Shown here in pieces: positions 6,054 to 44,443 of a DNA stretch of 64,000 bases (positions within the stretch are counted from its first letter, which is position 1; each line of letters starts with the position of its first letter). Source of the DNA: a virus; IMG/VR virus record IMGVR_UViG_3300033571_018680, positions 1-64,000 of that record. One strand, given 5' to 3'. The position numbers and the translations under genes are program-made. The notes under the pieces were generated by a model. The model did not search any database, was not told the origin of the DNA, and worked only from the letters and a program-made list of their open reading frames with translations.

Positions 6054-6422
6054 TTACTTATCTGTGATTTTACTGATAACTTCTTGTTGTCTTTTATTTG
6101 TTTCTTCAACATTTGAAGGGTCATATAATTGGCTTCCGTATCTTCCTTGTCTAGGTCTAAATGACACATTTAATTCTTTAAGAGCTTTAATATATTCTTC
6201 AGAATCTGGTCCGTATAATCTATCAGATATTTCTTGCATAAAATCAGAATCAACCTTAGGTCCAACTTTTACTGATAACTTATCCAAGTCTTTTTGAATT
6301 CTTTCAGTTTCTTCAGGTGTTGGTCTACCAGTAGATGATTTTAATCCTTTTGGAGTTAAGTCATTCTCCTCTTTCTTTTTACTAAACCAACCTTCATTAA
6401 ATTTATCCCAATTCTTAATCAT
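6054..6422 (-). CDS. Small protein with capsid-targeting-like N-terminus
   Basis: 122 residues of unknown function, hydrophilic and charged. It starts 'MIKNWDKFNEGW', one of a set of similar short N-termini in this window that resemble the T4 capsid-targeting peptide 'MKTYQEFIAE'. F-N-E at residues 8-10 would be a near match to the prohead protease site. It sits directly upstream of the portal gene on the same strand, so a virion role is plausible. A TTAATATATAG element precedes it. Confidence 0.6.
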   Translation of the reverse strand: MIKNWDKFNEGWFSKKKEENDLTPKGLKSSTGRPTPEETERIQKDLDKLSVKVGPKVDSDFMQEISDRLYGPDSEEYIKALKELNVSFRPRQGRYGSQLYDPSNVEETNKRQQEVISKITDK

Positions 6423-6454
6423 ATCTAATATTAATTTTATATACTATATATTAA

Positions 6455-7180
6455 TTATTTTCTACCATATTTTCTAAAACTAGCTTGTAGTCTTTTAATA
6501 TGGTCTTTTAATATAACATACTTATCTGATATCTCTTTTTCTATGTCATACATCTCATTAACAACTAATTGAGACATTTCTTTATCTCTTGAATTACTAT
6601 CTTTGGCTTTCTTATTCCATATTTGTATTAGTTTCTTAGGGTCATATCTATTCTTAGGATGTTGAGAGTATAAAAATTTAGGTAATTCTGATAGGTGAAT
6701 TTTATGAGCTATTTTTATTTGAGCTACATTATACTCCATAACAGAATATTGTAGTTTGTATTTAACTAGTTCCGTATAAATTGCCTCAAAGTTAAATTTT
6801 CTAGAATAAACATCTTTTTTCCAAGGATCTCCAGGTGATGATCCTTGAAAATCTTTATCACTAAATAATTTATCAAATATTTTAACTCTTATCTCAATTG
6901 GAATAAAGTTTAGATTAATTGCATAAAGTATAATTAAATTATCAAATCTTTTCACACTGACTGCGAATATAGGAGACCATTTTATCCAATTTGAATCGTC
7001 TAAATAGTGTAGAAAATAAAATCCACCAGTTCTTATTTTAGCAACTGGTATTCTTTCAACAAACTTATCACTTTTTCTATATTTATTGAAAAAGTATAAA
7101 GAGTTTATTTTGAAATTAGAAGCTTTATCACCTCCTTCAACCTTTACTTGATAATTAACAAATTCATTTAACATTCCCAT
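6455..7180 (-). CDS. Conserved-type structural-cluster protein, function unknown
   Basis: 241 residues. The segment 'IRTGGFYFLHYLDD' followed by 'AVSVKRFDNLIILYAINLNF' and 'IEIRVKIFDKL' resembles a pattern I associate with proteins in T4-like structural clusters whose role I cannot name with certainty. The C-terminus is basic and helical. It lies between the small tagged gene and the divergent gp4-like gene, in line with a virion or assembly role. Confidence 0.5.
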   Translation of the reverse strand: MGMLNEFVNYQVKVEGGDKASNFKINSLYFFNKYRKSDKFVERIPVAKIRTGGFYFLHYLDDSNWIKWSPIFAVSVKRFDNLIILYAINLNFIPIEIRVKIFDKLFSDKDFQGSSPGDPWKKDVYSRKFNFEAIYTELVKYKLQYSVMEYNVAQIKIAHKIHLSELPKFLYSQHPKNRYDPKKLIQIWNKKAKDSNSRDKEMSQLVVNEMYDIEKEISDKYVILKDHIKRLQASFRKYGRK

Positions 7181-7212
7181 ATTAGAGATTACTTTTTATT
7201 ATATATAAATAT

Positions 7213-7737
7213 ATGTTAAACTCGAAACCTAGTAATAAGAATTATAATCAAGGTAATTATATTCCTAAGAATAAAGACAAAGTTCTTAAATTAAATACCC
7301 AAGGTGGTGTCTATTATAGAAGCTCTTGGGAAAAGAAAATAATGACATGGTTAGACCATAACAATAATATTATAAAATGGGGAGCTGAGTGTATGAGAAT
7401 ACCTTATCAAATGACACATTTTGATAATGGTGATTCTAAAGTAAAAGAACACTGTTATTATCCAGACTTTTATTATGAAATGAGAATAAATGGTGTCTTA
7501 AAACAAGTAGTTGTTGAAGTTAAACCAATGAAAGAATATAAAATGGTTCAAGATTTAAGTGAGGGTAGACTAAATGTTCCTGATAAAGGAATGAAGAAGT
7601 TGAAAAATTTTGAATATGACTTAAAAATGGCTTACAAAAATAAAAACAAGTGGGAAACTATGATATCTTGGTGTAATAAAAAGGGTTATGAATTCATTAT
7701 CATAACAGAAGACCACTTGAAAAAGTTTAACTTGTAA
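7213..7737 (+). CDS. gp4: Head completion protein, T4 gp4-like
   Basis: 174 residues. T4 gp4 (also called gp50/65) is added to the filled head before tail joining and has a nuclease-like fold. Matching segments are 'YRSSWEKKIMTWLDHNNNI', 'IKWGAECMRIPYQ', 'YYPDFYYEMRINGVLKQ', 'VVVEVKPMKEY' (the D..E-x-K pattern of a PD-(D/E)xK fold) and the C-terminal 'KKGYEFIIITEDHL', parallel to T4 'KRGIKFRILTEDGL'. It is transcribed divergently from the 241-residue gene. Its 3' end overlaps the convergent membrane-protein gene by 11 bases. Confidence 0.82.
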   Translation: MLNSKPSNKNYNQGNYIPKNKDKVLKLNTQGGVYYRSSWEKKIMTWLDHNNNIIKWGAECMRIPYQMTHFDNGDSKVKEHCYYPDFYYEMRINGVLKQVVVEVKPMKEYKMVQDLSEGRLNVPDKGMKKLKNFEYDLKMAYKNKNKWETMISWCNKKGYEFIIITEDHLKKFNL

Positions 7738-8074: not shown

Positions 8075-8075
8075 T

Positions 8076-8449: not shown

Positions 8450-9541
8450 ATGAATATTAAATTAGAGTATATTTGGCTTGATGGTTCTAACCCTCAGCAA
8501 ATTAGGAGTAAGACAAAGATTGTAAATAAGATGGATACAATGATTCCTATGGACTATCCTGTTTGGTCTTTTGATGGTAGTTCTACTGGACAAGCTCAGT
8601 CTGGTAAAGGTAAAAACACAGATTGTCTATTAAAGCCGGTATTTGTTACTATGGATCCATTTAGAGGTAATCCACATAGATTAGTTTTATGTGAAGTTCT
8701 TAACCCAGATGGTACACCACATGAATCAAATAACAGAAGAAAATTAGCTAAAAAAGTATCTGAATTAAATATTGATTCAAATGAGAAATCTGATCTTCCT
8801 TGGTTTGGTTGGGAACAAGAATATACACTAACACATAAACCTATGGTTCCATTTGGTGTAGGTGAAGGTATTCCTTTAGGATTTAGTTTAGATCCAAATA
8901 GAGTACCAAGACCACAAGGTGATTATTATTGTGGTATCGGTTCTGATAATGTAGTAGGTAGAGAAATTGTTGAAGAACATATGGACTTATGTATGGAAAT
9001 TGGATTAGATATTTCAGGTATTAATGCTGAAGTTTTACTAGGTCAGTGGGAATATCAAATTGGTCCAGTTACTGCTCTAAACGGTTCAGACCAGTTATGG
9101 ATATCAAGATATCTATTACAAAGAGTTGCTGAAAAACATAATGTTAAAGTTTCTTTACATCCAAAACCATTAAAAGGAGATTGGAATGGAACTGGTTGTC
9201 ACGTTAACTTTTCTACTAAAGAAATGAGAGAAGAAGGTGGAATAGAAATCATTAAGGAAAGTATGGTGAAGCTAGAAAGATATCAAAAAGAACATATTGC
9301 TGTTTATGGTTTACATAATAATGAGAGATTAACTGGAGCACATGAAACTTCAAGTATTAATGAGTTTAGTTATGGATTCTCTACAAGAGATACTTCTATT
9401 AGAATCCCAGCTCAAGCAATTGTTGAAGGTAAAGGTTATTTTGAAGATAGAAGACCAGCTTCTAACTGTGACCCTTATTTAGTTTCTGAGAGAATGTTAC
9501 AAACAGTTTATTCTGAAGTTGAAGTTTCAGCAGAAGCATAA
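8450..9541 (+). CDS. glnII: Glutamine synthetase, type II (eukaryotic-like) family
   Basis: 363 residues, close to full length for GSII (about 350-370). It makes glutamine from glutamate, ammonia and ATP. Family motifs are all present: 'YIWLDG' at the start, 'FDGSSTGQA' (41-49), 'WFGWEQEYTL' with E122 and E124, 'GINAEVLLGQWEYQIGP' (190-206), 'GDWNGTGCHVNFST' with H251, 'NNERLTGAHET', 'STRDTSIRIP' and 'GYFEDRRPASNCDPY'. The metal and substrate ligands appear intact, so it is probably active. It stands alone between phage genes with its own downstream terminator. It is an auxiliary metabolic gene, probably acquired from a cellular source. Confidence 0.95.
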   Translation: MNIKLEYIWLDGSNPQQIRSKTKIVNKMDTMIPMDYPVWSFDGSSTGQAQSGKGKNTDCLLKPVFVTMDPFRGNPHRLVLCEVLNPDGTPHESNNRRKLAKKVSELNIDSNEKSDLPWFGWEQEYTLTHKPMVPFGVGEGIPLGFSLDPNRVPRPQGDYYCGIGSDNVVGREIVEEHMDLCMEIGLDISGINAEVLLGQWEYQIGPVTALNGSDQLWISRYLLQRVAEKHNVKVSLHPKPLKGDWNGTGCHVNFSTKEMREEGGIEIIKESMVKLERYQKEHIAVYGLHNNERLTGAHETSSINEFSYGFSTRDTSIRIPAQAIVEGKGYFEDRRPASNCDPYLVSERMLQTVYSEVEVSAEA

Positions 9542-14007: not shown

Positions 14008-14388
14008 TTATTTTTTTACCCAGTTATATTCTGGATGCTTTTTTATTACTTTATCCCAAAATCCTCCACTAACATCTTGGTCTATAATAATTGTAAAATC
14101 TTTATCTATTGAACTTAATATTACTCTCATGACTTCTTGTGATAAACCTTTTTCTCCGGTTGAATTTACAATAGATTTTATTTCAATTGAATCTTTCCCA
14201 AATTTTAACATAAGAGCTTTGAGTGGTAGTTTAGAATCTATTCTAACATTTGGTTTTCCTGACTTATCAAGAATAGATGATGCTAATATTGTATTATTAG
14301 TAATTTGAACATTTGTAAATATTTCTGATAACTTATTAGATATCTTATCCATTAATGTATATTCTTTATATTCTCTAATTAATCTCAT
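14008..14388 (-). CDS. Hypothetical protein, acetyltransferase-like C-terminus
   Basis: 126 residues with the ATG at 14388, which follows the stop of the upstream gene (14390-14392) at once. A longer frame to 14451 would overlap that gene by 62 bases and adds an unlikely hydrophobic lead. 'GEKGLSQEVMRVILSSI' and 'VSGGFWDKVIKKHP' recall the glycine turn and last strand of GNAT-like proteins, but the central part is not clear. It starts 'MRLIREYKEYTL', loosely like the shared N-terminal tag. Confidence 0.5.
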   Translation of the reverse strand: MRLIREYKEYTLMDKISNKLSEIFTNVQITNNTILASSILDKSGKPNVRIDSKLPLKALMLKFGKDSIEIKSIVNSTGEKGLSQEVMRVILSSIDKDFTIIIDQDVSGGFWDKVIKKHPEYNWVKK

Positions 14389-14389: not shown

Positions 14390-15004
14390 TTATTTAATTG
14401 GACAACTATTAGCAGTATAAATATACTTATAGTCTCTTTTAATTTTAACACCTAAACTCTCAGCTGTGGTAACAACATCTTCTAGACATTCTGAATCAGC
14501 TCCTCCAACAATAGTAACTTCTTTCCCATTTAAGGATTTTAATAACTCATATAGTTTTTTAGGGCATTGAAACCAAACATGTTTGTTTCCTATATAAGTA
14601 ATAATAGTTCCTTCTTTAGTATTGAATATATCACCTTTCTTCAGTGATTTAGATTCTTCCATCTCACTTATTTTATCATAAACTTCTTTATCTAATATCT
14701 TTTTATAGAAATCAGCATCTACATCATAATTATATCTCTTTTCAATTAAATCTTTTTGATTTGGGAAATGATATAAGTCATCATGTATAGGAACTTCAGG
14801 TTCATCTTCATATAGATAATCTTTATCTACATTCTTACCGTCTATATGGTTGTCCCAAAGTTGGTAGACATTTTGAAAGTTACTACAATACTTATTCAAT
14901 TCATTTAGGTACATTTCTGAAAAGAATTTCTTAAATGATTTCTGAACATCAACTATAATTAATGTACCATTACTATAACTTTCAAATGTTTTAAGATATC
15001 TCAT
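14390..15004 (-). CDS. Isochorismatase-fold hydrolase with an N-terminal tag
   Basis: 204 residues. After 'MRYLKTFESYSNG', a tag shared with unrelated proteins here, the cysteine-hydrolase fold starts: 'LIIVDVQKSF' with D19, and later 'VTIVGGADSECLEDVVTTAE' with C173, the expected nucleophile position. This family includes nicotinamidases and isochorismatases; the substrate cannot be told. The middle part is longer and less typical, so activity is not certain. A TTTAATATATAG element ends about 3 bases before the ATG. Confidence 0.65.
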   Translation of the reverse strand: MRYLKTFESYSNGTLIIVDVQKSFKKFFSEMYLNELNKYCSNFQNVYQLWDNHIDGKNVDKDYLYEDEPEVPIHDDLYHFPNQKDLIEKRYNYDVDADFYKKILDKEVYDKISEMEESKSLKKGDIFNTKEGTIITYIGNKHVWFQCPKKLYELLKSLNGKEVTIVGGADSECLEDVVTTAESLGVKIKRDYKYIYTANSCPIK

Positions 15005-15069: not shown

Positions 15070-15594
15070 TTATGCTGGTAATTCTTCACCACCTTCTGGT
15101 GCTTCTTCCTCTTTAGTTTCTTCTTCAGCTTCTTGAGTTTGAGCTTGAGGCTCTTCAAATTCTTCACCTTGTGATTGAGCTTGTGGCTGAGCTTCGGTTT
15201 GAACTTGTGGTTGAGCTTCAGCTTGTGGCTGAGCTTCAACTTGAGGTTGAGCCTGTGGCTGAGCTTCAGTTTGAGCTTGAGGTTGAGCCTGAGTTGATTG
15301 AGCTTGTGCTTGGCCACCCATTAATGCTCCACCAGGAATTTTTTCAACATCTAAGTTGTTCATATTTATATACTTAACAATTTCTTCAGCGATGTCAACA
15401 TCACCAAAAAACTGACGTAAATTTTTACCAGTAGTATCTTTTACTTTCTTTACATAAGCATTAATTAATGATTGGGGAATATCAATCATAGTTTTTACTT
15501 TGTAGATATCGTTTACTTGGAAAACAGATTCTTTAATAATCTCTTCTCTCTTACTCTTAGTACGATAATTTTCAAATGTTCTAATATGCTTCAT
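15070..15594 (-). CDS. Tagged protein with a Gln/Ala repeat tail
   Basis: 174 residues. It starts 'MKHIRTFENYRTKSKREE', one of the shared tag-like N-termini. Residues 25-90 form a small helical domain of unknown function. From about residue 93 the protein is low complexity: copies of 'AQPQAQ', 'EAQPQ' and 'VQTEAQPQ', then a Glu-rich end closing in 'PEGGEELPA'. The tail resembles that of the portal in composition. I infer a virion or core protein; no enzyme signature is present. Confidence 0.6.
   Translation of the reverse strand: MKHIRTFENYRTKSKREEIIKESVFQVNDIYKVKTMIDIPQSLINAYVKKVKDTTGKNLRQFFGDVDIAEEIVKYINMNNLDVEKIPGGALMGGQAQAQSTQAQPQAQTEAQPQAQPQVEAQPQAEAQPQVQTEAQPQAQSQGEEFEEPQAQTQEAEEETKEEEAPEGGEELPA
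15150..15312 (-). repeat. Gln/Ala/Pro/Glu coding repeats
   Basis: Irregular 15- to 24-base units with 'ttgagcttgtgg' and 'ctgagcttc' variants encode repeated A-Q-P-Q and E-A-Q-P-Q. Likely to vary in copy number between relatives. Confidence 0.7.
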
Positions 15595-17497: not shown

Positions 17498-17524
17498 AAA
17501 AACCCTCAAATTGAGGGTTTTTTC
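17496..17524. terminator. Bidirectional terminator between clpS and terminase
   Basis: AAACCCTCAA/TTGAGGGTTT with long A and T flanks, between convergent genes ending at 17497 and 17524. It can serve both. Confidence 0.8.
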
Positions 17525-19665
17525 TAATTTTTATTAGCTCCAAACCAATTTATTCCACTATCTGTATTGTTTTTATACCTATTCATGTTTTGTTTTCTTA
17601 TTCTTAAAACTTGACTATAATCCACCGCTTGAACAAAGTCTAAATTCTTTAGGCATTGATTCACATAGTTCATAAATTCTTTATCTGAAAAATTATTACC
17701 CCACTCTTCAACCATTTCTTTAAATTCATTCTTGGTAAATATTGAAGTTGAGTTCACAATTGTCATAACCGTATCATCATGTCCAACATCTGCTGCGTAT
17801 CTTGTATTACCCGCTGATGTTGTGTGTTTAACAAATGTTGTTATCTCTCTTATATTGTCCTCATTTGATATTACAAATCCTCTACTTTGCATAAGATCTT
17901 GATAATCTTTAACCATAATATTCTTATTCTCACCAACTTTTAATCCAACTTTTTCCTCTGTTGAGTCAGCTCTGTGTTTGTACCTTACAAATACTGATGA
18001 ACCATAGTCATTATTCCCATCAAATACATGTGGCAGTTCGGCAAAAAGAGTATTACCATAATTATTTAACTCTACTACAACTTTAATATTCTCTGGGTTG
18101 AGATATTCAAAAACTAACATATAAAGTAATTCAGCTAACTGTTTTACTGATATTAAATTACTTCTAAATAATCCAATTTGTTCTAGTCTGAAAAAATCTG
18201 TTATTGACTTATATGATGGTTTTTGAACTTCTATTAATTCAATGGGTTTTTCGGATATTCTAAATATATTTATAATAGAATAATCCTGACCCAATCCTTC
18301 TGATATATCCACAGACATAACAATTTTATATTCCTTTCTCCTAAGTGGTAAAAATACACTATCATCATCTATCCATTTAAGTCCTTCATAGCTAAATTTC
18401 AACTTTTGATCAAACTCAGGTATTGGTTCAAATACATAATTCTTCTTACCCTTTAATAATTCTTCTATTATACTCTCATTTAATAATGATTTACTTGAGT
18501 TAATGAATCTTAATCCATATTCTTGATTAAAAGCATCTTCACCACCAATATCCTTTACAGCTTCTTCTTTCCAAGTTGTCATTTCAGATATTGCTCTTAT
18601 TGGAACTTCATGTCCTTTTTTATCAATGAATGTCATGGATTTAACATCATCATCAGAACATTTATCATTATTATAGACATAGATAACATCTTTCATATTA
18701 TCTAAGATGTACTTCATTTCTACCTTTGTAACATCTCCCCAGGTATCTGACATTAATTTGAATATATCCTCTTTTGTAACACCGTGCTCATGTAATTTAT
18801 GAGCATTCAGTCTAATATATGTTACGAATCTACCTGGTACTTGATACCAGTAAACCCTCATTGGTTTATAGTTATTCTTTTGTGGATCCCCTTCAGGTCT
18901 CTCAGCATCAGTTAGTAACCTATGAAATAGATTCATACCATTTGGAGTTGATGTAATAATAATCTTTGAGTTCTGAACGGCTGATACGGTTGGAAAAGCA
19001 GCTGTATAGTATGGTTCAATAATATTTGATGGGATATGAGCAAACTCATCTAAATAAAGCACATCAATAGTAAAACCAATAGCTGGAGTTTTAGTTCTTG
19101 CTGATGTTTTGATTCTACAACCATTGTCAAATGTTAGTGATTTTTGATTCCAAGTTTTAATTCCTGGTTTTAAGAAGAACGGTAGTAAAGAGTAGATTGA
19201 TTTAATCTTATCTACAATCTCAACTGCTGTATCACCTTTATTCGCAACAATCATTATATTCTTATCATTGTTAAATAGAATAGTATGTAACATGAAAATA
19301 GAAGATGAGATTGTTTTACCAACCTGACGAGAAGCCATTAGAATATTAAATCTACTATTAACAAAATTGTCAAGTATTTCTTTTTGATACTCTCTTAATT
19401 TTATATTATTGATTGATCCATCTTCTGTCTTAACTTTACAATATTTCTCAGTGAAATAATGAACATCTAAAGCACATTTAATATACTCAGATTGTTCATC
19501 TTGAGTCATTTTAAATGATACGCCCGATCTTCTTAAACCAACTTCGGATTTTAACCAAGGGTTTTGGTATCTTTTTATAACAATACCATCATTTATCTTA
19601 TCTGTAGATTCATCAACTAACTTAGTTGTGAATACCATTTGTCTTTCTTTTTGCTCAACAGCCAT
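17524..19665 (-). CDS. gp17: Terminase large subunit, T4 gp17-like
   Basis: 713 residues. It packages DNA with an N-terminal ATPase and cuts concatemers with a C-terminal RNase H-like nuclease. Walker A is 'ASRQVGKT' (111-118), Walker B 'VLYLDEFAHI' with D206-E207, followed by the coupling motif 'IIITSTPNG'. The nuclease starts with 'IVMSVDISEGLGQDYS' near residue 450 and has a second acidic site in 'IKVVVELNNYG' and a third in 'DVGHDDTVM'. It is slightly longer than T4 gp17 (610). It is divergent from the possible small-terminase gene at 19716. Confidence 0.95.
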   Translation of the reverse strand: MAVEQKERQMVFTTKLVDESTDKINDGIVIKRYQNPWLKSEVGLRRSGVSFKMTQDEQSEYIKCALDVHYFTEKYCKVKTEDGSINNIKLREYQKEILDNFVNSRFNILMASRQVGKTISSSIFMLHTILFNNDKNIMIVANKGDTAVEIVDKIKSIYSLLPFFLKPGIKTWNQKSLTFDNGCRIKTSARTKTPAIGFTIDVLYLDEFAHIPSNIIEPYYTAAFPTVSAVQNSKIIITSTPNGMNLFHRLLTDAERPEGDPQKNNYKPMRVYWYQVPGRFVTYIRLNAHKLHEHGVTKEDIFKLMSDTWGDVTKVEMKYILDNMKDVIYVYNNDKCSDDDVKSMTFIDKKGHEVPIRAISEMTTWKEEAVKDIGGEDAFNQEYGLRFINSSKSLLNESIIEELLKGKKNYVFEPIPEFDQKLKFSYEGLKWIDDDSVFLPLRRKEYKIVMSVDISEGLGQDYSIINIFRISEKPIELIEVQKPSYKSITDFFRLEQIGLFRSNLISVKQLAELLYMLVFEYLNPENIKVVVELNNYGNTLFAELPHVFDGNNDYGSSVFVRYKHRADSTEEKVGLKVGENKNIMVKDYQDLMQSRGFVISNEDNIREITTFVKHTTSAGNTRYAADVGHDDTVMTIVNSTSIFTKNEFKEMVEEWGNNFSDKEFMNYVNQCLKNLDFVQAVDYSQVLRIRKQNMNRYKNNTDSGINWFGANKN

Positions 19666-21897: not shown

Positions 21898-24540
21898 ATG
21901 AAATATTTAAAGGGTAGAGATAATTACTTAAATGAACTAAAGGTAAATAGTGGACTTGTACCATATGCAAAAAACGATTCTATTGCTTCTATAAATGAAG
22001 AAGTAATGACTAATACAATTACCTGGGGTGATTCATTATTAGGTAGACTAATAAACTCTGCTATTAGAAAAGCAAAGGTTGGTGTTAATTTAGTTAGAAT
22101 AAGTAGTGTTATTAAATCTCTTTATAAGTTATTTGATGAGATGGTGGCAGATGGTGTTATTAAAGAGATGCCAGTTGTTAGTAGAATAAAGATTTACAAA
22201 TTCGCTTTAATTAAGTTTATTGAAGAAATTGAAAAGGTTGCTGCTGATCCATCAGATTATGTATTAAATGAACCAGGTGTTGAAGTTGAAGTTGAAGATA
22301 TAGATGAGATTAAGAATATGACTGATGGTGTAATAACTGAGATAGAGAAGTATATGAGTGATATCATATCAACTGGTCAATCTAGTGGTGAGATTCCAAA
22401 GAATGAAATAGATGAGTTAGAATTAGATAAAAAGGACTTAATAGACGCACTTACTAAGTTTAGAGAATCTTTAGATGAAATAAAAGCTCCTGAAGGTGAT
22501 AAAGAAGAAACATCCGTAGTTTCAGAGCCTAAAAAGGAAACGGGTCTGGTATATTCTGAAAATATGGCGAATAACTTAAAGTCCGTTTATATGATATTAT
22601 TTTATTATCACCAAACTATATTATCTAAAAAGCCAGCATCTGGAGTTAATAAAGCCGAAGTGGTAAAAAAACCACAACCAGAAAATATTGTTAAAAGCTC
22701 TGTAGTTGATAAAAGTAAAGTTGCTGAGTCCGTACTATTAAATGAGTCGGTGCTAAATCCTAACCTATCAAATGCTATTAAGCCATTATATACTTACTTT
22801 AAGAATGAAGGTCAATTTACCTTTCCTAGTGAATCAAAGGGTAGAGAAAATGAATTTCATAAATTTCTTAGTGGGAATAAAGATGGTATATTAAAAGTAT
22901 ATAAATCAATTAGTTTAATTAAAGAAGATTTAAAAACTCTACTAACAAAACCAGAAAAGGTTGGTGGTCATATATTTAATTTATATAAAACTACCAGAAC
23001 TAAACCAAATGGTGATTTTCAAGGAGTTGATGGTGATTTTCAGAGTCAGATTAAGATATTTAATACTACAATGAAGTCAATTTTAGACTCTATAAAGGTT
23101 GAAACAAAAGTAGAGACTAGTGAAGATGGTGTTGAGGTTGGTAAGAAGTATAAATATACTAATAAAGAAGGAGAGACTAAAGATGTGTTGGTTGTTGATA
23201 AAGATAAAGTTGTTCAACCAGGTCCTGATAAAAAATTCCTAACCGGTGATGATAAAAAGGGAAAAGAATTGGAAAGTGGTCTTGTTTCAGTAGCTTCTGA
23301 TAAATCAAAGGTTACATTCCCTGTGAGCCCAGAATCTCTAAAGAAAGAATCTAAATTAATATCTAGCTATCTTGATTTTATAAAAGAAGCTGATGAGAAT
23401 AAAGATACCTGGTTAGTAAAAGTTCATGAGTCGTGGAGAAATAATTTTTTAGGTAATTTTAAAAATCTAAAGAAGTATAAATTAACACAAGAGGAAGTTG
23501 ATAAATTAACACAAGAAGTTGAAAAGGCTAGTAAGAATACTAAATCTCTTAAAATAGTTGGTAAAGATCCGGTTATAGAGGTTGTTAGACTATTCAATAG
23601 AGCTTATAGATTACACACTACTCAAGTTATACCAACAGGTAGAAGTGGTGGAAAAGTTTCTAATAAAACCTTTATGGAATATACATGTTTTGGAAGTGGT
23701 AGTCCGGATACTGCTGGTCAATCAGGTGGTCCATATAGAAATAACGCTGTATTTTCAAAATGGGAAAATGCTGTTTTAGATATAGTATCATCATCTAAAT
23801 ATAGAATCATTTTTAATGAAGAAGCTACTATACAAGTAGGTGAGGGTAATCCTGTTAAAGATTTTGGTAGAAAATTATTAAATTTTATGAATGAGTTATT
23901 AGATGATACTCAATTATATAAAGAAGGTGAGCAAAAGAAATTCATAAATAAATATTTTAATGTTGATATTCAAACTAAAGAACTAAATTCTCCTGGTAAA
24001 AATGATACTGGGTCTAATGATAAACTATCTAAACAACAGAAACAAAAAAATGTCGACTTTACTGAACAAGATGAGATTAAATTTGAAGAAGGTCAGATTT
24101 TTAAATTTAATTATAAAGAAGGTACTTTATATGGATATGTTTATAGTATAAAGAATAATAAGACATATATTAAATTTAGTAAGAATCACTTATTTGTTAA
24201 GAAATATCTACCAGGTGATATTAAATTTAAAACAAATCCTAAATCTGTTGATGGTCCGGTTTATTTTGCTGAGATTAAAGGAACTAAACTTACTAAGAAT
24301 ACATATAAACTTGATAGTTGTTTAGATGTCTCTAAAAAAGTCGAAAAAAATGAAGTAGATAAATCATTTAATATAGAATTTAGACCATCTAAGATGTATT
24401 TACTTAAAGAAGATGGGTCCACTGAATCTTATACTGTTAATACACAGGCTGATGACTTTGACTCAAATAGATTTTTGGTGAAAAGAGATTCAAAGAAACC
24501 AAAAGGATTTGATGGTTGGTATAAACTATTCATTTCATAA
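21898..24540 (+). CDS. Large tagged protein, probably a virion or core protein
   Basis: 880 residues. It starts 'MKYLKGRDNYLNELKVNSG', with an L-N-E site at residues 11-13, which fits the shared capsid-targeting-like N-termini. The segment 'NTITWGDSLLGRLINSAIRK' follows near residue 40. The rest is a lysine-rich, mostly helical protein with a possible beta domain near 405-450 ('VEVGKKYKYTNKEGETKDV') and another near 740-790. No catalytic motif found. It ends at a terminator. A role as an internal head protein is inference. Confidence 0.55.
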   Translation: MKYLKGRDNYLNELKVNSGLVPYAKNDSIASINEEVMTNTITWGDSLLGRLINSAIRKAKVGVNLVRISSVIKSLYKLFDEMVADGVIKEMPVVSRIKIYKFALIKFIEEIEKVAADPSDYVLNEPGVEVEVEDIDEIKNMTDGVITEIEKYMSDIISTGQSSGEIPKNEIDELELDKKDLIDALTKFRESLDEIKAPEGDKEETSVVSEPKKETGLVYSENMANNLKSVYMILFYYHQTILSKKPASGVNKAEVVKKPQPENIVKSSVVDKSKVAESVLLNESVLNPNLSNAIKPLYTYFKNEGQFTFPSESKGRENEFHKFLSGNKDGILKVYKSISLIKEDLKTLLTKPEKVGGHIFNLYKTTRTKPNGDFQGVDGDFQSQIKIFNTTMKSILDSIKVETKVETSEDGVEVGKKYKYTNKEGETKDVLVVDKDKVVQPGPDKKFLTGDDKKGKELESGLVSVASDKSKVTFPVSPESLKKESKLISSYLDFIKEADENKDTWLVKVHESWRNNFLGNFKNLKKYKLTQEEVDKLTQEVEKASKNTKSLKIVGKDPVIEVVRLFNRAYRLHTTQVIPTGRSGGKVSNKTFMEYTCFGSGSPDTAGQSGGPYRNNAVFSKWENAVLDIVSSSKYRIIFNEEATIQVGEGNPVKDFGRKLLNFMNELLDDTQLYKEGEQKKFINKYFNVDIQTKELNSPGKNDTGSNDKLSKQQKQKNVDFTEQDEIKFEEGQIFKFNYKEGTLYGYVYSIKNNKTYIKFSKNHLFVKKYLPGDIKFKTNPKSVDGPVYFAEIKGTKLTKNTYKLDSCLDVSKKVEKNEVDKSFNIEFRPSKMYLLKEDGSTESYTVNTQADDFDSNRFLVKRDSKKPKGFDGWYKLFIS

Positions 24541-25476: not shown

Positions 25477-26031
25477 ATGATACATTTAAAATCATATTTA
25501 CCATTTTTGGAAGAAATTGATATCAGTGCAAATGATTCTCCAAATCTAAAAATTGCTAAAACAAGTTTAAATTCTGAAAATGATGAGATACAAGAGTTTA
25601 AAACTAAACTAAAGCCAGGTTTGGATAGGCTTTACAAGGATATTAAAGATCCTGTAGAGAGAGATAAAAAGGTTACTCAGTTATTAGGAGATGAAAATGT
25701 AAATAAGTATGCTAATGATTATAAGATTATTCTAAATGATATAGAAAGCCTGGAGAAAAAGCAAAATTCAATATTATCTGATGTAGCTGATATAAATGCT
25801 GATAAGAGTTTATTAGCATCATCATCAAGTACTGCAGATAATAAGGATATAAAAGCTAGAATAAATCAACAAATAGCTGAAAGAAATATGAAAAAGTCTA
25901 AAACTATATCTGAGATTAATAAATTAAAAACAGATATTGATAAAAGACAGTCAGATTTTAAACAAAAAATGACAAAAAATATTCAAGATGTTGAAAATGA
26001 TATAAAAACTTTATCTAAAGGTCAAAAATAG
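25477..26031 (+). CDS. Coiled-coil protein with tag-like N-terminus
   Basis: 184 residues from the ATG at 25477. An alternative start at 25414 lies inside the previous gene and is less likely. It begins 'MIHLKSYLPFLEEIDIS' with L-E-E at residues 11-13, similar to the other tagged proteins. The rest is Lys/Asp-rich with heptad-like segments at 85-105 and 140-184. It lies directly upstream of the sheath gene. Confidence 0.6.
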   Translation: MIHLKSYLPFLEEIDISANDSPNLKIAKTSLNSENDEIQEFKTKLKPGLDRLYKDIKDPVERDKKVTQLLGDENVNKYANDYKIILNDIESLEKKQNSILSDVADINADKSLLASSSSTADNKDIKARINQQIAERNMKKSKTISEINKLKTDIDKRQSDFKQKMTKNIQDVENDIKTLSKGQK

Positions 26032-31314: not shown

Positions 31315-31344
31315 AAAAAGAGAGACAAATGTCTCTCTTTTTTG
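31313..31344. terminator. Bidirectional terminator before the tube gene
   Basis: AAAAAAAGAGAGACA/TGTCTCTCTTTTTT between convergent genes ending at 31314 and 31361. Confidence 0.8.
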
Positions 31345-31360
31345 TTTAGTATTTTTACTA

Positions 31361-31978: not shown

Positions 31979-32091
31979 ATCTTTTTTAATTATTTTTTAT
32001 AAATTATATATTATTACTCACATTCTCTTTATCTCCATTTATTATAATTATGTTGTTAAAAATGCCATTTCCACTTTTTAATAGATAGATT

Positions 32092-32439: not shown

Positions 32440-32467
32440 TTTCATATAAAAAGAAAAACTAGTTTTA

Positions 32468-33586: not shown

Positions 33587-33588
33587 AA

Positions 33589-33618
33589 CAAAAACCCATC
33601 TTTAAGATGGGTTTTTTA
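33589..33618. terminator. Bidirectional terminator between gp47 and the cupin-like gene
   Basis: AAAACCCATCTTAAAGATGGGTTTT-type palindrome with A and T flanks. The minus-strand gene stops inside its right arm at 33602. Confidence 0.8.
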
Positions 33619-33877
33619 TTAACTTTATTTTCAAATCACCAGTTCCTTTTATTAGTCTATGATAAATACCCATTGGTATAAATACTTCTCCTTTTATTTC
33701 TTTGGGTAATTCATTATCTATTTGAATCATCCAATCTGTTTTACCAATAGATTCGATTATTCTATCTTCTCTATCACGATGCCACATAAATTCACCAGAA
33801 TCAGTATCATTATGGAACTCTCTGATAAAGATATTATCACTTAATTTATTTTCTTGAAATGGTAACATATGAATCAA
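33602..33877 (-). CDS. Small cupin-like protein
   Basis: 91 residues. 'FMWHRDREDRIIES' then 'DWMIQIDNELPKEIKGEVFI' then 'PMGIYHRLIKGTGDLKIKL' reads like a small double-stranded beta-helix with possible metal-binding His residues. No enzyme role can be named. It overlaps the end of the upstream tagged gene by 4 bases, so the two are translationally coupled. Confidence 0.6.
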   Translation of the reverse strand: MIHMLPFQENKLSDNIFIREFHNDTDSGEFMWHRDREDRIIESIGKTDWMIQIDNELPKEIKGEVFIPMGIYHRLIKGTGDLKIKLIKNPS

Positions 33878-34293
33878 TTATGCTTTGTAAATGAAATTTG
33901 TAAATGGTGAAAATTATCAACTTCCTTACCAAAGAAATACAATCTATGATTTTTATACTTTACAAGATTATGACTAGCTGGATCTTCCGTTGTAGAATAA
34001 AACATATTTAAAATATAAAAATCTTCGCTTTCCATGTAATCAATCATCCTTTCAAAAACTTCCTTTACATCATCATAGGTAAAAGACTTAGAACGTTCTT
34101 CATAATAGCCTGAATTTTGTACAACTCCAACAAATACTCTTATAGAGTCAGGACTAAGAACTCCACCAGTTCCTTTCATCTCACGAACATCTACAAAATA
34201 ACCTAAATCTGTTAGTTCTAATAAAATATCATTTAACTCATTAGTATTTTTATTAAAAGATTCAAATATTTTATATTTTTTTAAGTGTTTCAT
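33874..34293 (-). CDS. Tagged hypothetical protein
   Basis: 139 residues. N-terminus 'MKHLKKYKIFESFNKN' is tag-like, with I-F-E at 9-11 as a possible cut site. It continues with 'LNDILLELTDLGYFVDVREM' and 'YDDVKEVFERMIDYMESEDF', an alpha/beta layout common in small phage proteins. Function unknown. A TTTTTATATATAG element lies before the ATG. Confidence 0.6.
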   Translation of the reverse strand: MKHLKKYKIFESFNKNTNELNDILLELTDLGYFVDVREMKGTGGVLSPDSIRVFVGVVQNSGYYEERSKSFTYDDVKEVFERMIDYMESEDFYILNMFYSTTEDPASHNLVKYKNHRLYFFGKEVDNFHHLQISFTKHN

Positions 34294-34296
34294 ATA

Positions 34297-35634
34297 CTAT
34301 ATATAAAAATAATCAGTATAATTATTTGACTTTAATCGGTATCTCATAATTTGTCTATCTATTCCCGATCCATCAACTGCTTTTGATATAGATTCATAAA
34401 TAATTCCATTTATAGAGACCGATTTTAGTTTTGGTATGCCTGTTTCTTTTAACTCGACCACTTTATCCAAATAAAACCAACTTGGATATGATTTTGAGTT
34501 AAGTCTCCAATTTATATAATCATGTGTTTTTTTTAATTCTTTTACAGCTTCTGTTATTGACCCATATTCTTTTCCTTCTATTGATATTCTTTCTTTTTTT
34601 GACAGATGTGGATCAACTTCAATAAATTTATTATACTTTATGTTTAGATCATTATCTTTGAATAGATAGTTTTTGAAGTGAGATGACTTTAATCTTGAAC
34701 GTATTAAAGACCTATCAATACTAAGTCTTTCAACAGATTCGGAAATAGATTTATATTCTATATTATCAATGATTATTTCTTTTTTAGTCTCCTGGTCAAA
34801 CTTTTTTCTTTTTTCTTGAAGTCTAATCTTTATTTTTAATTTTAAATCTTCGCCAATATATTCATAAAATTTATATCTTCTTTTAAAAAATCTATTCGGT
34901 ACACAATCAATATATAAAATTAAACCATCTATATCTTTTTCAATAATTAGTCTATCGATCTTATCAAATTCCTCATTTTCTCTAATTTTTAATTTTCCAA
35001 AAATATACCTTAAATCCTCCCCAAAGAACTCGTAAAAACCATAAGCATTTTTAAGAAAATTATGGTCTACTCTTTTTTTAATTAATGATAGTTCGTTTAG
35101 ATAATCATCAATATTTCCAAATTTTATCTCGTTTCTAATAAATTCACATCTTTCTTTAAATTCATCATTATATTTCTTCCACTTTTTTTCATTTTTTAAT
35201 TTAGATTCTGTAGATAAAATACTCTTATGTATATTTTTTTTAAGATTTTCTTTGTATATCTTAGCTTTTTCCAAACCAAATGCTTCTTCATAGGTTTTAC
35301 CCTTTTTGGGACTATTTTTAGATATCTTCTCTCTTATTAATTCTAAATCAGGATGATTAGATAGAGTATCTCCTCCATCACCACCAGGAGCGATATTATA
35401 TCCTATTTTTCTATCAGTTGATTTATAATATGATATCCAATAAATCTCCTTCTTTGAAAGTACATTATAGTCATCAGTTTCATCAATAATTTCTTTGATG
35501 AAATTTTCCATTCCATATTTTTTTAAAGACCTACTAATTATCAATCCTGATCCAAAATAGTTGGGATCTGATGTGGTGTCTTTGCCTATATAAATTTTAT
35601 TATTTACAAGATTGGTTATTTTATATATTTGCAT
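34297..35634 (-). CDS. GIY-YIG homing endonuclease with NUMOD DNA-binding repeats
   Basis: 445 residues. The GIY-YIG nuclease is at the start: 'MQIYKITNLVNNKIYIGKDT' has K-I-T...I-Y-I-G, followed by 'LKKYGMENFIKEII' and a catalytic Glu in 'LSKKEIYWISYYKS' and 'IGYNIAPGGDGG'. Next comes a NUMOD3-type stretch ('KKGKTYEEAFG'). Three NUMOD1-like modules end the protein, each with Y-x-S-I-(S/T)-E/K-A/S-V. Such genes are mobile and target sites in related phages. It is a complete gene with no visible damage. Confidence 0.9.
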   Translation of the reverse strand: MQIYKITNLVNNKIYIGKDTTSDPNYFGSGLIISRSLKKYGMENFIKEIIDETDDYNVLSKKEIYWISYYKSTDRKIGYNIAPGGDGGDTLSNHPDLELIREKISKNSPKKGKTYEEAFGLEKAKIYKENLKKNIHKSILSTESKLKNEKKWKKYNDEFKERCEFIRNEIKFGNIDDYLNELSLIKKRVDHNFLKNAYGFYEFFGEDLRYIFGKLKIRENEEFDKIDRLIIEKDIDGLILYIDCVPNRFFKRRYKFYEYIGEDLKLKIKIRLQEKRKKFDQETKKEIIIDNIEYKSISESVERLSIDRSLIRSRLKSSHFKNYLFKDNDLNIKYNKFIEVDPHLSKKERISIEGKEYGSITEAVKELKKTHDYINWRLNSKSYPSWFYLDKVVELKETGIPKLKSVSINGIIYESISKAVDGSGIDRQIMRYRLKSNNYTDYFYI

Positions 35635-35687: not shown

Positions 35688-36266
35688 TTACCAAAATCCC
35701 GGGTAGGATTTATTGTTCCACAAGTGACCAAATTTATTAATTCTACACGCCCAGTAACCAGCAGTAGTTTTGTCTTTTTTTGCGGGGCAATTCATGCGAC
35801 TGGAAAATGCTTTTCTTGCTTTAGGATTACTAACTTTAGCAGTCAATCCACCTTTTATATCACCAAATGAAATCTTTTTAACCCTGCCAGTTTTAGGATT
35901 TTTAACATAAACATAATATTTTTTACCCGATCCGGTGTTTCTCATTGGGTAATTTAATTTAACTTCTTTTCCGTGATATTCAGCCTCATTTAGTTCTTCA
36001 ATGTTTTCCATTGGTATATCTAAAGGAACTAACTCACCGTTGTACATTCCAAACTTACCAATATCAGTTGATTCATATAATTCTTTATCAACATCACATA
36101 GATTAACTCTACCTAAGTCAAATAGTTCTCTAGCTTCTTTGATAACCTCATAAAAAGCTTCTGAGCCTGGTCTGAATATATTTTCAGTAATAGGTTTATT
36201 ATTCTCTAAATGATATTTAAGAGATTCTGATACATTTATAGATTCTGTGAATTTTCTAATTTGCAT
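35688..36266 (-). CDS. Tagged protein with DUF5872-like C-terminus
   Basis: 192 residues. It starts 'MQIRKFTESINVSES' (tag-like, F-T-E at 6-8). The middle is acidic. The last 60 residues, 'VKKISFGDIKGGL', 'NPKARKAFSSRMNCPAKKDK' and 'TAGYWACRINKFG', match by memory a DUF5872-type module common in marine T4-like phages (ARKxFxxRxxC...DKxxxxYWxCR). The Cys residues may bind metal. Function unknown. Confidence 0.6.
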   Translation of the reverse strand: MQIRKFTESINVSESLKYHLENNKPITENIFRPGSEAFYEVIKEARELFDLGRVNLCDVDKELYESTDIGKFGMYNGELVPLDIPMENIEELNEAEYHGKEVKLNYPMRNTGSGKKYYVYVKNPKTGRVKKISFGDIKGGLTAKVSNPKARKAFSSRMNCPAKKDKTTAGYWACRINKFGHLWNNKSYPGFW

Positions 36267-36275: not shown

Positions 36276-36470
36276 TTATTTTAGTTCATTGAACTTTTCA
36301 ATTTTGTTCTTTTTAACTTTTTCGAGTTCTTTTTCATCATGTTCAACTGGTTCAGTTTTGATATCAGGATTTAAATCCTTTTCCATTTCTAAAGAATCAG
36401 CATTAAATTCCATTTCTTGGTCTTTAGCTTTTTCTTCTTTAGTTTCGTTAAATCTTTTGATGTGTGTCAT
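36276..36470 (-). CDS. Short tagged acidic protein
   Basis: 64 residues, very rich in Glu and Lys, starting 'MTHIKRFNETKEEKA' with F-N-E at 7-9. No fold expected beyond helix. The next gene upstream on its strand ends two bases away, so it is co-transcribed with the 107-residue tagged gene. T4 internal proteins are also small and charged, which supports a packaged role. Confidence 0.55.
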   Translation of the reverse strand: MTHIKRFNETKEEKAKDQEMEFNADSLEMEKDLNPDIKTEPVEHDEKELEKVKKNKIEKFNELK

Positions 36471-36472: not shown

Positions 36473-36796
36473 TTATTTACTAATTTTTTTAAGAACTTTA
36501 GCGCATTTTTCATACTCTTCATTTTCTTCCAGTTCTTTAAGATATTCTCTTAATTGTTCTTTATTAGATAATTCTAATTTTAGATTAAATCTAACTTCAC
36601 CTAATTCTTTCATATCTTTTACTTGTTTATCTATTATTTTATTAATAACATCTCTTTTGAATTGTGACATTTTTGCAAATTCATTCCAATCATTTACACC
36701 ATTATCTTTTAGAAAGTGTAAAATACCATCGGTACAAGAAGTTATTCTATCTATTGTAGATTCAAGTAAAAATTGATTATAATTATTTATTTTCAT
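36473..36796 (-). CDS. Tagged helical protein
   Basis: 107 residues. N-terminus 'MKINNYNQFLLESTID' is one of the best matches to the T4 capsid-targeting peptide 'MKTYQEFIAE', with L-L-E at 10-12. The remainder is helical and charged. First gene of a minus-strand run of tagged proteins (36796 to 35688), preceded by AATATATACTT. Confidence 0.6.
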   Translation of the reverse strand: MKINNYNQFLLESTIDRITSCTDGILHFLKDNGVNDWNEFAKMSQFKRDVINKIIDKQVKDMKELGEVRFNLKLELSNKEQLREYLKELEENEEYEKCAKVLKKISK

Positions 36797-42713: not shown

Positions 42714-42746
42714 TAAAAAACCTCTTATAATTAAGAGGTTTTTTAT
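42714..42746. terminator. Bidirectional terminator
   Basis: AAAAAACCTCTTA..TAAGAGGTTTTTT between convergent genes ending at 42713 and 42746. Confidence 0.8.
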
Positions 42747-44074
42747 TATTTATTAGGTGTTTCGCTTGGGAGTGGCTTTTTTCCACCACCTTTACCACCT
42801 TTTTTATTCTTTTCTTCAGGTACTCCCTTTTCAAATTCAGAGTAAACATCAGGATAAACATCACCTTCAGCATCTTGGTCATATTTTATCTCAAAAAAAT
42901 CACCAAAGTCAAGAAGACCAGCTCTTGTTAATTCAACCTCTTGTGCTTTGTTTAGATATTTTTCAATATAAACATTTATATCATCAACAAATTTATTAAA
43001 TAAAATAACTGTATTATCTGTGAATAAACCAATAGGCTTTTTTCTCTTCTTATTAAAAGAACCAAGTACAACTTTAAAAATGTATTCTAGTTTAGAATCT
43101 TCTTTAATATAATCTTTAGTTAGTTTATTATTAATAAGTTCTGTGTTAATTTTAAATTTATCTTTATCAAAGAATTGAGGAACTACAAAATCAAATTCAA
43201 TAAGATCTTGTTTAACTTCAGAAACATAAATATTAAATAATTTGGAAATCAAATAGATATAAATCTCATCTTTTTTCTCACCTTTTAGTTTAATATCTTC
43301 AATGTTTACTGATTGACAAAAATTTAAGAAGTTAATTAATATAAGAGTGTATATTTCAACAAAGTCAGTTGAATTATTATCACTAATTCTCTTATAAAGT
43401 GGATTTAATAACTCAAATGAAATATCTTTATCATCACTTCTGATAATTAACTTTTCTAAGTTTTTCTGGAAGTCTTCTTCCATTAAAAATGAATTAGTGG
43501 AAGTAGGATTTAATATTTTATAGAAGAAGAAAGCAAATGATTTTTCACCAAAAATATATTCTAAGTCATCATCACTAGTATTAATAAAATACTTAATAGC
43601 TTCTTTCATTCTCTCAGTTAATTTACCTTGAAATAAAATAGGAATCATATCAACATCAAATAACCTAGCATATTCATCTAACTCATCTATTGAAAATTCA
43701 TACTTACCACTTTTATTAATAGCAGTAATAACTAAGTTGTTTTTAGGGACTTTAGAATATTCTATATTAGCTGGTTGATTATCAGGAAAGTATTCAAAAC
43801 AAAACCACCATTTTTTATTTAGTAGAGATTTAACTCTTTGATCCAATGAATTAAAATAATTAATAGCAGGGTTGTAATAGTTTTGCATAGCTAAGTCAAT
43901 TAGATTTATTGACTCATTTCCAATTGATTTTGGTTTGATAGTAAATTCATTACCATCCCAACTTACCCAAATTTTACTACCTTGTATATCTTCAAATACT
44001 GTTATTTCAGAATCAAATAGATTGTTTATTAAAGTCTCATCATTTAACCCATTCAGTGTTACTAGTTTACTCAT
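42746..44074 (-). CDS. Protein with a degenerate RNA-ligase-like N-terminal domain
   Basis: 442 residues. 'GSKIWVSWDGNEFTIKPKSI' (residues 32-51) resembles ligase motif I and the following strand (K-x-D-G-x-x-x-x-I), and 'WWFCFEYFPDNQPANIEYSK' resembles the motif III region of Rnl2-type ligases (E94). The nucleotide-binding Lys is replaced: S38-W39-D40-G41. Motifs IV and V are not seen. The C-terminal half is helical, and the end is Lys/Gly/Pro-rich. It may be a binding pseudoenzyme or an unrelated structural protein that looks similar by chance. Confidence 0.4.
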   Translation of the reverse strand: MSKLVTLNGLNDETLINNLFDSEITVFEDIQGSKIWVSWDGNEFTIKPKSIGNESINLIDLAMQNYYNPAINYFNSLDQRVKSLLNKKWWFCFEYFPDNQPANIEYSKVPKNNLVITAINKSGKYEFSIDELDEYARLFDVDMIPILFQGKLTERMKEAIKYFINTSDDDLEYIFGEKSFAFFFYKILNPTSTNSFLMEEDFQKNLEKLIIRSDDKDISFELLNPLYKRISDNNSTDFVEIYTLILINFLNFCQSVNIEDIKLKGEKKDEIYIYLISKLFNIYVSEVKQDLIEFDFVVPQFFDKDKFKINTELINNKLTKDYIKEDSKLEYIFKVVLGSFNKKRKKPIGLFTDNTVILFNKFVDDINVYIEKYLNKAQEVELTRAGLLDFGDFFEIKYDQDAEGDVYPDVYSEFEKGVPEEKNKKGGKGGGKKPLPSETPNK

Positions 44075-44128
44075 AATTTTTATACTTTGTTTTTGATTTT
44101 TGTTTTATATCAAATTATATATTAATAA

Positions 44129-44443
44129 TTACTTATTACTTAAAAAATTGGTAATTATAATCAAATCTTCTTCATAATTACCTGTTAGATTACTCTCTAA
44201 TCCACCCGCTTTTAGATATTCATTATGTAATCTTATATAATCATCTTCAAAGAATAAGTCTTTTGTTAGATCATTTTTAGAACTACTATTTTCAACATCT
44301 TTAACATTAACTAATGATGTATCTGTTTGAGTAATTGTTTTATTTTGAAGTCTTGTTTCACCGTAAGCTGGCCCAATCGGACCTACCAATTCTGTTCCCG
44401 ATACTTCTTCATTTATAAAATCATTAAATTTTTTAATCTTCAT
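44129..44443 (-). CDS. Tagged hypothetical protein
   Basis: 104 residues from the ATG at 44443, which lies inside the last codons of the upstream gene. The longer start at 44497 would overlap that gene by 65 bases. It begins 'MKIKKFNDFINEEVSGTELV'; F-I-N-E at 9-12 is an excellent match to T4 'EFIAE'. The rest is polar with a helical end. Likely a packaged or core protein by this criterion. Confidence 0.6.
   Translation of the reverse strand: MKIKKFNDFINEEVSGTELVGPIGPAYGETRLQNKTITQTDTSLVNVKDVENSSSKNDLTKDLFFEDDYIRLHNEYLKAGGLESNLTGNYEEDLIIITNFLSNK

Follow-up and report, generated by a model that had tools for sequence, protein, structure and literature searches.

A candidate capsid-targeting leader on many unrelated accessory proteins of Mahaphage-like huge phages

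The 64,000-nucleotide stretch analysed here, positions 1 to 64,000 of the IMG/VR virus record IMGVR_UViG_3300033571_018680 (hereafter the window), encodes a number of dissimilar proteins that begin with variants of one short peptide, the tag. We propose, with a probability of roughly 0.8, that this N-terminal peptide is a capsid-targeting sequence (CTS) of the type found in phage T4, expanded more than tenfold and loading an injected arsenal of accessory proteins. The case is built from sequence, namely from the tag itself, its enrichment at gene starts, its conservation at the protein level, its independence of the protein bodies, the retrieval of T4 internal proteins, the resemblance to scaffold repeats and the functional bias of the tagged genes; packaging, docking, cleavage and injection are what we infer from it. 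An earlier sequence-only reading of the window had listed ten tagged genes, and had overlooked both the genome-wide extent of the tag and its resemblance to the repeats of a protease-scaffold protein encoded at 1109-3247.

At 99.998% identity the 104-kb virus record, of which the window makes up the first 64 kb, falls within G1, a 385,333-bp contig belonging to a Mahaphage-like huge phage. The terminase encoded there shares 78-79% identity with its counterparts in two uncultured phages (635 and 642 kb), 41% with those in phages of 636 and 735 kb, and 32-35% with those in the cultured phages PTm1 and PAU; according to the available part of PMC7162821, five genomes larger than 634 kb fall into the clade Mahaphage, with Bacteroidetes as predicted hosts. 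G1 was compared with G2 (a 476-kb relative), W01 (LR745206, 635 kb), W02 (LR756504) and W03 (LR756501, 735 kb), all five being referred to as the five huge phages, and further with T4, PTm1 and PAU. Genes were predicted by a purpose-made caller blind to the motif, and because this caller misplaces some start codons the tag counts are likelier too low than too high.

Enrichment and conservation of the tag

As worded in the sequence-only reading the motif proved too strict, matching only one of the 456 genes of G1, because the true tag occurs in two registers, MKxLKx[FY].. and MK[IL]xx[FY]xx[FL]... The pattern M[KR].[LI][KR].[FY] stands at 37 of 456 N-termini in G1, 44 of 616 in G2, 76 of 940 in W01 and 39 of 903 in W02, against 2 of 1956, 1 of 2641, 6 of 3380 and 1 of 2931 internal methionines of the same proteins, which served as the background for motif counts. 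None of the N-termini of T4, PTm1 and PAU carries it, and in W03, where the tag has another register, it occurs at 2 of 993.

Tags were called with a position-specific model of variable register at a score (log-likelihood ratio, LLR) of at least 5. Trained on three of the genomes G1, G2, W01 and W02 and tested on the fourth, the model called 70 of 456, 87 of 616, 126 of 940 and 58 of 903 genes, respectively, where internal methionines lead one to expect 0.5, 0.2, 0.6 and 0.6 false hits; residue-shuffled N-termini gave a mean of 0.65 in G1 (maximum 3 in 20 shuffles) and means of 1.25, 1.35 and 2.75 in the others. Training on all four genomes raised the calls to 75, 93, 163 and 68, with 78 in W03, a genome unseen in training. 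As controls for generic N-terminal composition, 2 of 307 genes of PTm1, 1 of 291 of PAU and 6 of 256 of T4 reached the same score. In a survey of terminase loci, 64 of 80 carried at least one tagged open reading frame of at least 100 amino acids, with hits at 2 of 5276 internal methionines; the corresponding survey around gene 35688 (genes of the window are named by their first coordinate, Table 1) gave 42 of 60 and is less clean, because 13 of 1618 internal methionines were hit as well.

Conservation of the tag is almost wholly at the amino-acid level, since codons for the same residue agree little more often than expected from the codon usage of the genome (0.677, expected 0.621, in G1; 0.590, expected 0.574, in W01). 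A DNA or RNA signal at gene starts, such as a translation or promoter element that incidentally encodes a peptide, would account for the location of the tag at the start codon, but it is barely credible in view of this codon agreement and of two registers serving one peptide pattern. Many apparent losses of the tag between orthologues are start codons miscalled by the gene caller. When all in-frame starts were re-read, 190 of 244 directed comparisons retained the tag, 38 were intermediate and 16 lacked it, some of the last being still artefacts (for example, W01_724). The tag of gene 25477 is retained by orthologues of 25-37% identity; among 15 orthologues F10 and E12 are invariant, with a mean column identity of 0.55 in the tag against 0.36 in the body and a mean of 0.66 at position 7. 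Likewise, E8 is invariant in 31 distinct orthologues of gene 14390, and for gene 15070, with 59 orthologues found, column identity at E22 is 1.00 among the 46 distinct ones.

Likeness to T4 internal proteins and to the head scaffold

The comparison with T4 capsid targeting, first drawn from the window, is upheld by the ranking of T4 internal proteins, the untagged replication homologues, the scaffold repeats and the clustering of tagged genes near the head genes of PAU. Never having been shown T4, the model placed ipIII, ipII and ipI, all annotated as internal virion proteins, at ranks 2, 4 and 5 of 256 T4 genes; the full order was 61.1, ipIII, mobB, ipII, ipI and e.6, with scores from 7.5 to 6.0, the next gene scoring 3.5. 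While mobB is probably a false hit, the top match, gene 61.1 (NC_000866, 18966-19130), encodes a 54-residue protein starting MKTFKEFIKED, and its product is possibly an unrecognised internal protein of T4, a prediction drawn from its N-terminus.

Suppressor substitutions in the T4 leader assign residues 4 and 7 to targeting and residues 8 and 10 to processing, as described in section 10 of PMC9026906. In the huge phages an aromatic residue, a hydrophobic or aromatic one three positions on, and then hydrophobic-x-Glu follow in the same order as T4 positions 4, 7, 8 and 10, and the aromatic anchor with F, L or Y at +3 dominates the columns of the tag model. The class of tags with this T4 order is largest in G1 (25 of 75), W02 (18 of 68) and W03 (25 of 78) and smaller in G2 (17 of 93) and W01 (24 of 163); among low-scoring genes it comprises 1 of 263, 1 of 553, 6 of 604, 4 of 367 and 3 of 528, respectively. 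Encapsulin cargo-loading peptides are likewise short and portable and bring enzymes of unrelated kinds into a shell of HK97 fold, but they are C-terminal, uncleaved and docked on the shell rather than on a scaffold.

Like the T4 CTS (MKTYQEFIAE), the tag is an N-terminal leader of about ten residues placed ahead of unrelated bodies and accompanied by a gp21-type protease. It differs in that the huge-phage leader is often basic at its start (MK[HY]LK), that many tags have F or T at P3, that the protease forms one polypeptide with a scaffold whose 14-residue repeats resemble the tag, and in its extent, 58-126 tagged genes per genome standing against the three internal proteins and Alt given as non-core internal cut proteins of T4 in the available part of PMC9026906. 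In phiKZ and SPN3US, with their ejection proteins and prohead proteases (gp175 and gp245), several head proteins are also cut after x-x-E in maturation, with A at P3 in SPN3US and S or A in phiKZ; the SPN3US propeptides described in the accessible text of PMC10052503, on eight proteins, are mostly of 111-254 residues, whereas the huge-phage leaders are short and sit on a large variable set. Publications containing the term 'capsid targeting sequence' concern, by title or abstract, T4, P1, SPN3US, P22 and T4-based technology, and among the titles listed for this and related searches no huge-phage system is suggested, most subscription journals and bioRxiv lying outside the search. New here are a putative cargo list more than tenfold longer than that of T4 and the tag-like repeat in a fused scaffold-protease.

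This fusion protein, encoded by gene 1109, is proposed to be both the docking partner and the processing enzyme of the tag. It contains 8 copies of Y[SAN]EY[ILV]AE at an exact spacing of 14 residues, and in all five huge phages an S77-like domain is fused to 14-residue [IL]AE repeats. Counts of internal [FYW]xx[FYLIMW][IL]xE place the fusion first in each of the five, with 11, 12, 11, 10 and 12 occurrences against 2, 3, 2, 2 and 7 in the next-richest protein (456 genes being ranked in G1). Since the fusion protein is the richest in internal CTS-like motifs, the tag looks like a single unit of the scaffold repeats, which themselves bear evenly spaced sites of the gp21 type. A PF07068 capsid protein was found above cut-off in all seven phages compared, with hydrophobic-x-E-N near its N-terminus in each (INEN, IHEN or MNEN in the five huge phages, INEN in PTm1, LMEN in PAU). 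Separate short frames with protease-scaffold repeats occur at 619760-620383 in W03 and 460483-460635 in W01.

The putative cleavage site shows itself as a concentration of [IL]xE at residues 9-13 that peaks at residue 11, where G1 has 24 (6.1 expected) and W01 has 55 (13.5 expected), the peak being weak in W02. Ser is preferred after the Glu, at a frequency of 0.23 in G1 and 0.20 in W01 against 0.07 in either genome, the preference being weaker in W02 and in W03; the SPN3US protease also prefers Ser at P1', according to the same part of PMC10052503. A strict [IL]xE with its Glu at residues 7-14 is present in 43 of 75 tagged genes of G1, 41 of 93 of G2, 73 of 163 of W01, 40 of 68 of W02 and 43 of 78 of W03, against 7-12% of genes scoring below 0 (23 of 263 in G1), an enrichment that is partly circular because the model itself favours those residues. 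In the AlphaFold model of the gene 14390 product, made without Met1, residues 2-10 have a predicted local distance difference test score (pLDDT) below 50 and the first strand starts at residue 11, so that the fold begins just past the predicted cut at E8. From such sites we infer that the prohead protease would cut the tag after its Glu. Some tagged proteins may be targeted yet uncut; in T4, Asp at position 10 blocks cutting while targeting is kept (PMC9026906, available part).

The cultured relative PAU has a leader of its own, MK[TS][LI]xxL[YF]E with S or A as the usual next residue, at 20 of 291 N-termini and none of 1391 internal positions; one of the 20 is doubtful, and a stricter pattern retains 19. 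Fifteen of the 20 lie among the 39 genes at 99-122 kb, near the protease, scaffold-like and capsid genes (hypergeometric P 5e-11, although both the interval and the pattern were set with the list already known; for PAU as for PTm1, the pattern was written after inspection of the N-termini). That this clade has a leader of its own suggests joint divergence of leader and head machinery, clade by clade. Several of the 20 PAU genes, spread over 9332-201592, have a second LNE site five residues on.

Tagged proteins and tagged genes of the window

That the parts after the tag share nothing, as claimed from the window, was borne out by BLAST, which sorted the 75 tagged genes of G1 into 69 body-homology clusters and the 163 of W01 into 154. 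One fast-diverging paralogous family, whose N-terminus is merely its best conserved part, would fit the tandem arrangement seen in G1, where as many as 10 tagged genes follow one another and 28 adjacent tagged pairs compare with a shuffled mean of 12.2 (maximum 25); such a family is nevertheless highly improbable given the number of clusters, the diversity of the bodies (RNA ligase, Nudix, tRNA nucleotidyltransferase, an isochorismatase fold) and the gain of the leader by the RNA ligase as an extension. In G1, G2 and W01 the body of RNA ligase 1 is preceded by a MKLFRYKEFIKE-type leader, added as a clean extension; in W02 and W03, as in T4 gene 63, the protein starts at the body without a leader. 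This appears to be the clearest case of recruitment by leader gain. Polynucleotide kinase was rejected as tagged cargo, being only fused or run-on behind a tagged Nudix in G1 (G001 278396-279478) and separate and untagged in W01.

A census against Pfam and PHROGs was made in G1 for 71 tagged genes (4 crossing stretch borders were left out) and 71 length-matched untagged ones (score below 0; of 75 matched), 25 families being named where there were more. The tagged set matched 20 Pfam and 28 PHROG families and the untagged set 67 and 109. Among the former are RNA ligase 1, tRNA nucleotidyltransferase, Nudix, NFACT-R and 2H phosphoesterase, as well as ankyrin repeats, PQ-loop, a methyltransferase and others; the untagged families named include DnaB helicase, DNA polymerase, DNA ligase, a sigma factor, NusG, methylases and homing endonucleases. 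The best-scoring 100 of the 163 tagged genes of W01, none crossing a stretch border, matched 13 Pfam families, including NFACT-R, Nudix, glycosyl hydrolase 108 and a 2H phosphoesterase fused to an exonuclease. An assignment of G1 314643-315176 to the anti-CBASS protein Acb1 was rejected; this product is a 2H phosphoesterase, Acb1-like at most, because PF23474 (25.6 bits) stays under its cut-off of 27 and PF13563, 2'-5' RNA ligase, exceeds 27 with 36.5 bits.

Only 5 of the 75 genes common to all five phages are tagged in G1, against 70 of the remaining 381, and tagged genes are mostly accessory. These data bear on the alternative that the tag does dock proteins on the prohead core and is cut, but that its bearers act in assembling the head or condensing the genome instead of being injected. 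The scaffold resemblance and the location of the PAU cluster speak only for assembly, and in T4, according to the available part of PMC9026906, gp21 cleaves gp22 as well as further core proteins. We consider this alternative unlikely, however, since RNA ligase 1, tRNA nucleotidyltransferase, Nudix and 2H phosphoesterase have no obvious structural role and since a poorly conserved, accessory set is unlike assembly factors.

An equal presence of the motif in replication proteins, a possibility raised in the sequence-only reading, was not found: 4 of 131 genes with T4 homologues are tagged in the five huge phages, against 477 of 3908 overall (P 2e-4), the four being RNA ligase 1 (three) and NudE (one). 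No homologue of T4 genes 41, 43, 44, 46, 47, 61 or uvsX reached a score of 5, the highest being 4.0 (uvsX). A short portable N-terminal address on unrelated proteins would also suit another compartment made by the phage, be it a nucleus-like shell, a vesicle or a membrane, and nucleus-forming jumbo phages build such compartments (PMC13282480, as far as available). This destination is very unlikely, because the replication and recombination homologues are untagged, because the model retrieves T4 internal proteins, which are addressed to the capsid, and because the core of the tag is common to the scaffold-protease.

The ten genes listed for the window are present at the positions and with the N-termini given for them, and eight of them reach a score of 5 while 6054 and 35688 remain weak; of the 72 genes predicted for the whole window, 8 do so (Table 1, scored with the model trained on four genomes, G1 among them). 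Five of the ten (33874, 44129, 36473, 21898 and 25477) indeed have (I/L)xE, with E at residues 11-13.

Table 1. Features of the window discussed in the text. A slash sets off the residue that follows a tag or site.
Position	Strand	Feature	LLR	Tag and remarks
1109..3247	-	prohead protease (S77, T4 gp21-like) with scaffold-like region, putative		Pfam match below cut-off; 14-residue repeats (I)xYSEY[IL]AEN
6054..6422	-	tagged gene, weak score	3.6	MIKNWDKFNE (6393-6422); adjoins portal-like gene
14008..14388	-	borderline tag	2.6	MRLIREYKEY
14390..15004	-	tagged hydrolase of predicted isochorismatase/nicotinamidase fold	8.3	MRYLKTFE (14981-15004)
15070..15594	-	tagged gene	7.0	MKHIRTFENY; second invariant site IIKE/S at residue 22
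17524..19665	-	terminase large subunit		untagged; matched annotated proteins of this kind in tblastn; query for finding relatives
21898..24540	+	tagged 880-amino-acid protein	5.2	MKYLKGRDNYLNE (21898-21936)
25477..26031	+	tagged gene	9.8	MIHLKSYLPFLE (25477-25512)
33874..34293	-	tagged gene	11.7	MKHLKKYKIFE/S (34261-34293)
35688..36266	-	weakly tagged gene	3.5	MQIRKFTESINVSE/S
36276..36470	-	tagged gene	8.5	MTHIKRFNE (36444-36470)
36473..36796	-	tagged gene	8.1	MKINNYNQFLLE/S (36761-36796); exact T4 geometry YxxF[IL]xE
44129..44443	-	tagged gene	10.6	MKIKKFNDFINE/E (44408-44443); exact T4 geometry FxxFIxE
44433..44891	-	borderline tag	3.9	MKIKKILKYYLFGES

Eight of the ten genes (all except 36276 and 36473) gave no match above cut-off in Pfam, and among the nine (all except 36276) compared with PHROGs, 15070 matched single-stranded DNA-binding protein weakly and 35688 matched a family without assigned function. 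The product of 14390 aligned by VIA-align to nicotinamidases with Z 10.5 (root-mean-square deviation 3.5 over 127 residues), the top 45 rows, of Z 8.6-10.5, being nearly all of the isochorismatase/nicotinamidase superfamily and the next at 6.0; Foldseek alone returned no match at E <=0.001, and a sequence search of the alignment against solved structures returned one chance-level match. Judged by its model, this protein is of the isochorismatase/nicotinamidase fold, which by itself does not show activity; D19, K89 and C173 (protein numbering), which we take to be the Asp-Lys-Cys catalytic triad, are invariant in 26 sequences.

Relatives of the remaining genes keep the tag to differing extents. 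Y-x-x-F-[IL]-x-E is found in 13 of 14 distinct listed N-termini of 36473 (for example, MKINRYNQFINEE), the remaining one being a short read; 13 distinct listed orthologue N-termini of 36276 score 4.6-9.2, and the G2 relative of 44129 begins MKIKSFKQFNEEVSGTELVGP. M[KR][YF]Lxx[RN]xxFL is retained in several of 40 orthologues of 21898, not in others as read; those of 35688 vary between full tags (MKHIKQFVDFSES, MKYLKKFNEDEMF) and other starts such as MVQQLLLELQG. The AlphaFold model of 35688 has residues 1-9 at pLDDT below 50 and is poor overall, too poor for a structure search. The borderline gene 14008 starts alike in 3 distinct orthologue N-termini, that of the window counted. A search for relatives of 33874 returned one locus only, the contig holding the window itself; its tag is of the type of a tandem run in G1 (G001, L097, 310047-317325), where nearly all of about a dozen short same-strand genes are tagged (MKYLKTYKLFES, MKHLKTYKLFES, MRYLKTYKIFES), and which looks like an array of candidate injected effectors. 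The 36276 protein starts with MTHIKRFNETKEE and ends with KKNKIEKFNELK, a tag-like stretch at its C-terminus as well.

Elsewhere in the window, the untagged gene at 4277..5980 (-), in head-gene context between the protease and 6054, is presumably portal-like, to judge by its position; 8450-9541 we take to be glutamine-synthetase-like and 51620-60490 a run of glycosyltransferase-like genes. The terminase gene is interrupted near residue 117 at one related locus (L064, G004 31216-34970), in two pieces 1.6 kb apart, and the matches in two others (L070, L072) begin only at residue 117, perhaps reflecting an intron or homing element at one site.

Proposed route of the tagged proteins and its meaning

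Several observations weigh against a T4-type targeting sequence. Strict (I/L)xE is present in about half of the tags, 21 of 75 in G1 having [FY]xE and others T-F-E, and no hydrophobic-x-E occurs by residue 15 in 6 of 75 tags of G1, 20 of 93 of G2, 21 of 163 of W01, 14 of 68 of W02 and 9 of 78 of W03. A second [IL]xE downstream, at residues 15-45, is not clearly enriched, a D/Q control being also up. Taken whole, the tag of 14390 has a lower column identity than its body (0.52 and 0.67, respectively), and in 15070 the tag is no better conserved (0.65 and 0.67), conservation being confined to single positions. The S77 assignment is weakened by a Peptidase_S77 (PF03420) match of 19.9 bits (E 5.6e-4), under the curated cut-off of 27, and by a search with the fusion protein that found homologues in PTm1 and PAU and no T4 match at E 0.001; DUF1549, also under its cut-off, beats S77 by E-value. 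Moreover, the functional split is not absolute, as the untagged set includes a 2H phosphoesterase and methyltransferases, and tagged genes are scattered genome-wide and do not lie on the head-gene strand in W01, W02 and G2. A head-strand bias, present in G1 and W03 and absent from the other three, was dropped. In PTm1 only 4 of 307 N-termini are tag-like, of a type of their own. No virion proteomics for these phages was found in the literature reached, and the term 'mass spectrometry' was absent from the publications searched on PAU and MA9V-1.

Were the tag a capsid-targeting sequence, tens to more than 100 unrelated accessory proteins would be made with a 9-14-residue leader bearing an aromatic residue, a hydrophobic or aromatic one three positions on, and a glutamate. 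Resembling one scaffold repeat (Y-x-E-Y-[IL]-A-E), this leader would dock on the scaffold core of the prohead, and the scaffold-fused S77-like protease would then cut after the Glu of the tag and at the [IL]AE sites of the scaffold, removing the core and freeing the cargo. DNA would be packed around the cargo, which would enter the host at infection, where its recognisable members may repair tRNA, hydrolyse nucleotides and perform other immediate-early accessory work. Injection is suggested by analogy, because T4 IPI is injected; it shields DNA from a restriction enzyme, according to the available part of PMC3012670.

More broadly, we rather incline to think that the largest phages carry a standing injected proteome of about 6-15% of their genes, mostly variable accessory ones, loaded through a leader that mimics a scaffold repeat; new members would be recruited by acquiring some 13 leader residues, the path that RNA ligase 1 appears to have taken, and the leader would diverge by clade with scaffold and protease. 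If true, the large capsid would serve the delivery of protein besides that of DNA. As most huge-phage genes are without known function, a readable address would give a destination, time and place to some 60-130 proteins per genome, and the tag could be used as a sequence-only screen for injected phage effectors. It also makes the purpose of the many accessory genes of huge phages, and the time at which they act, a question for virion proteomics, with the prediction that the RNA ligase and other candidate counter-defence proteins would arrive with the DNA, before phage gene expression.

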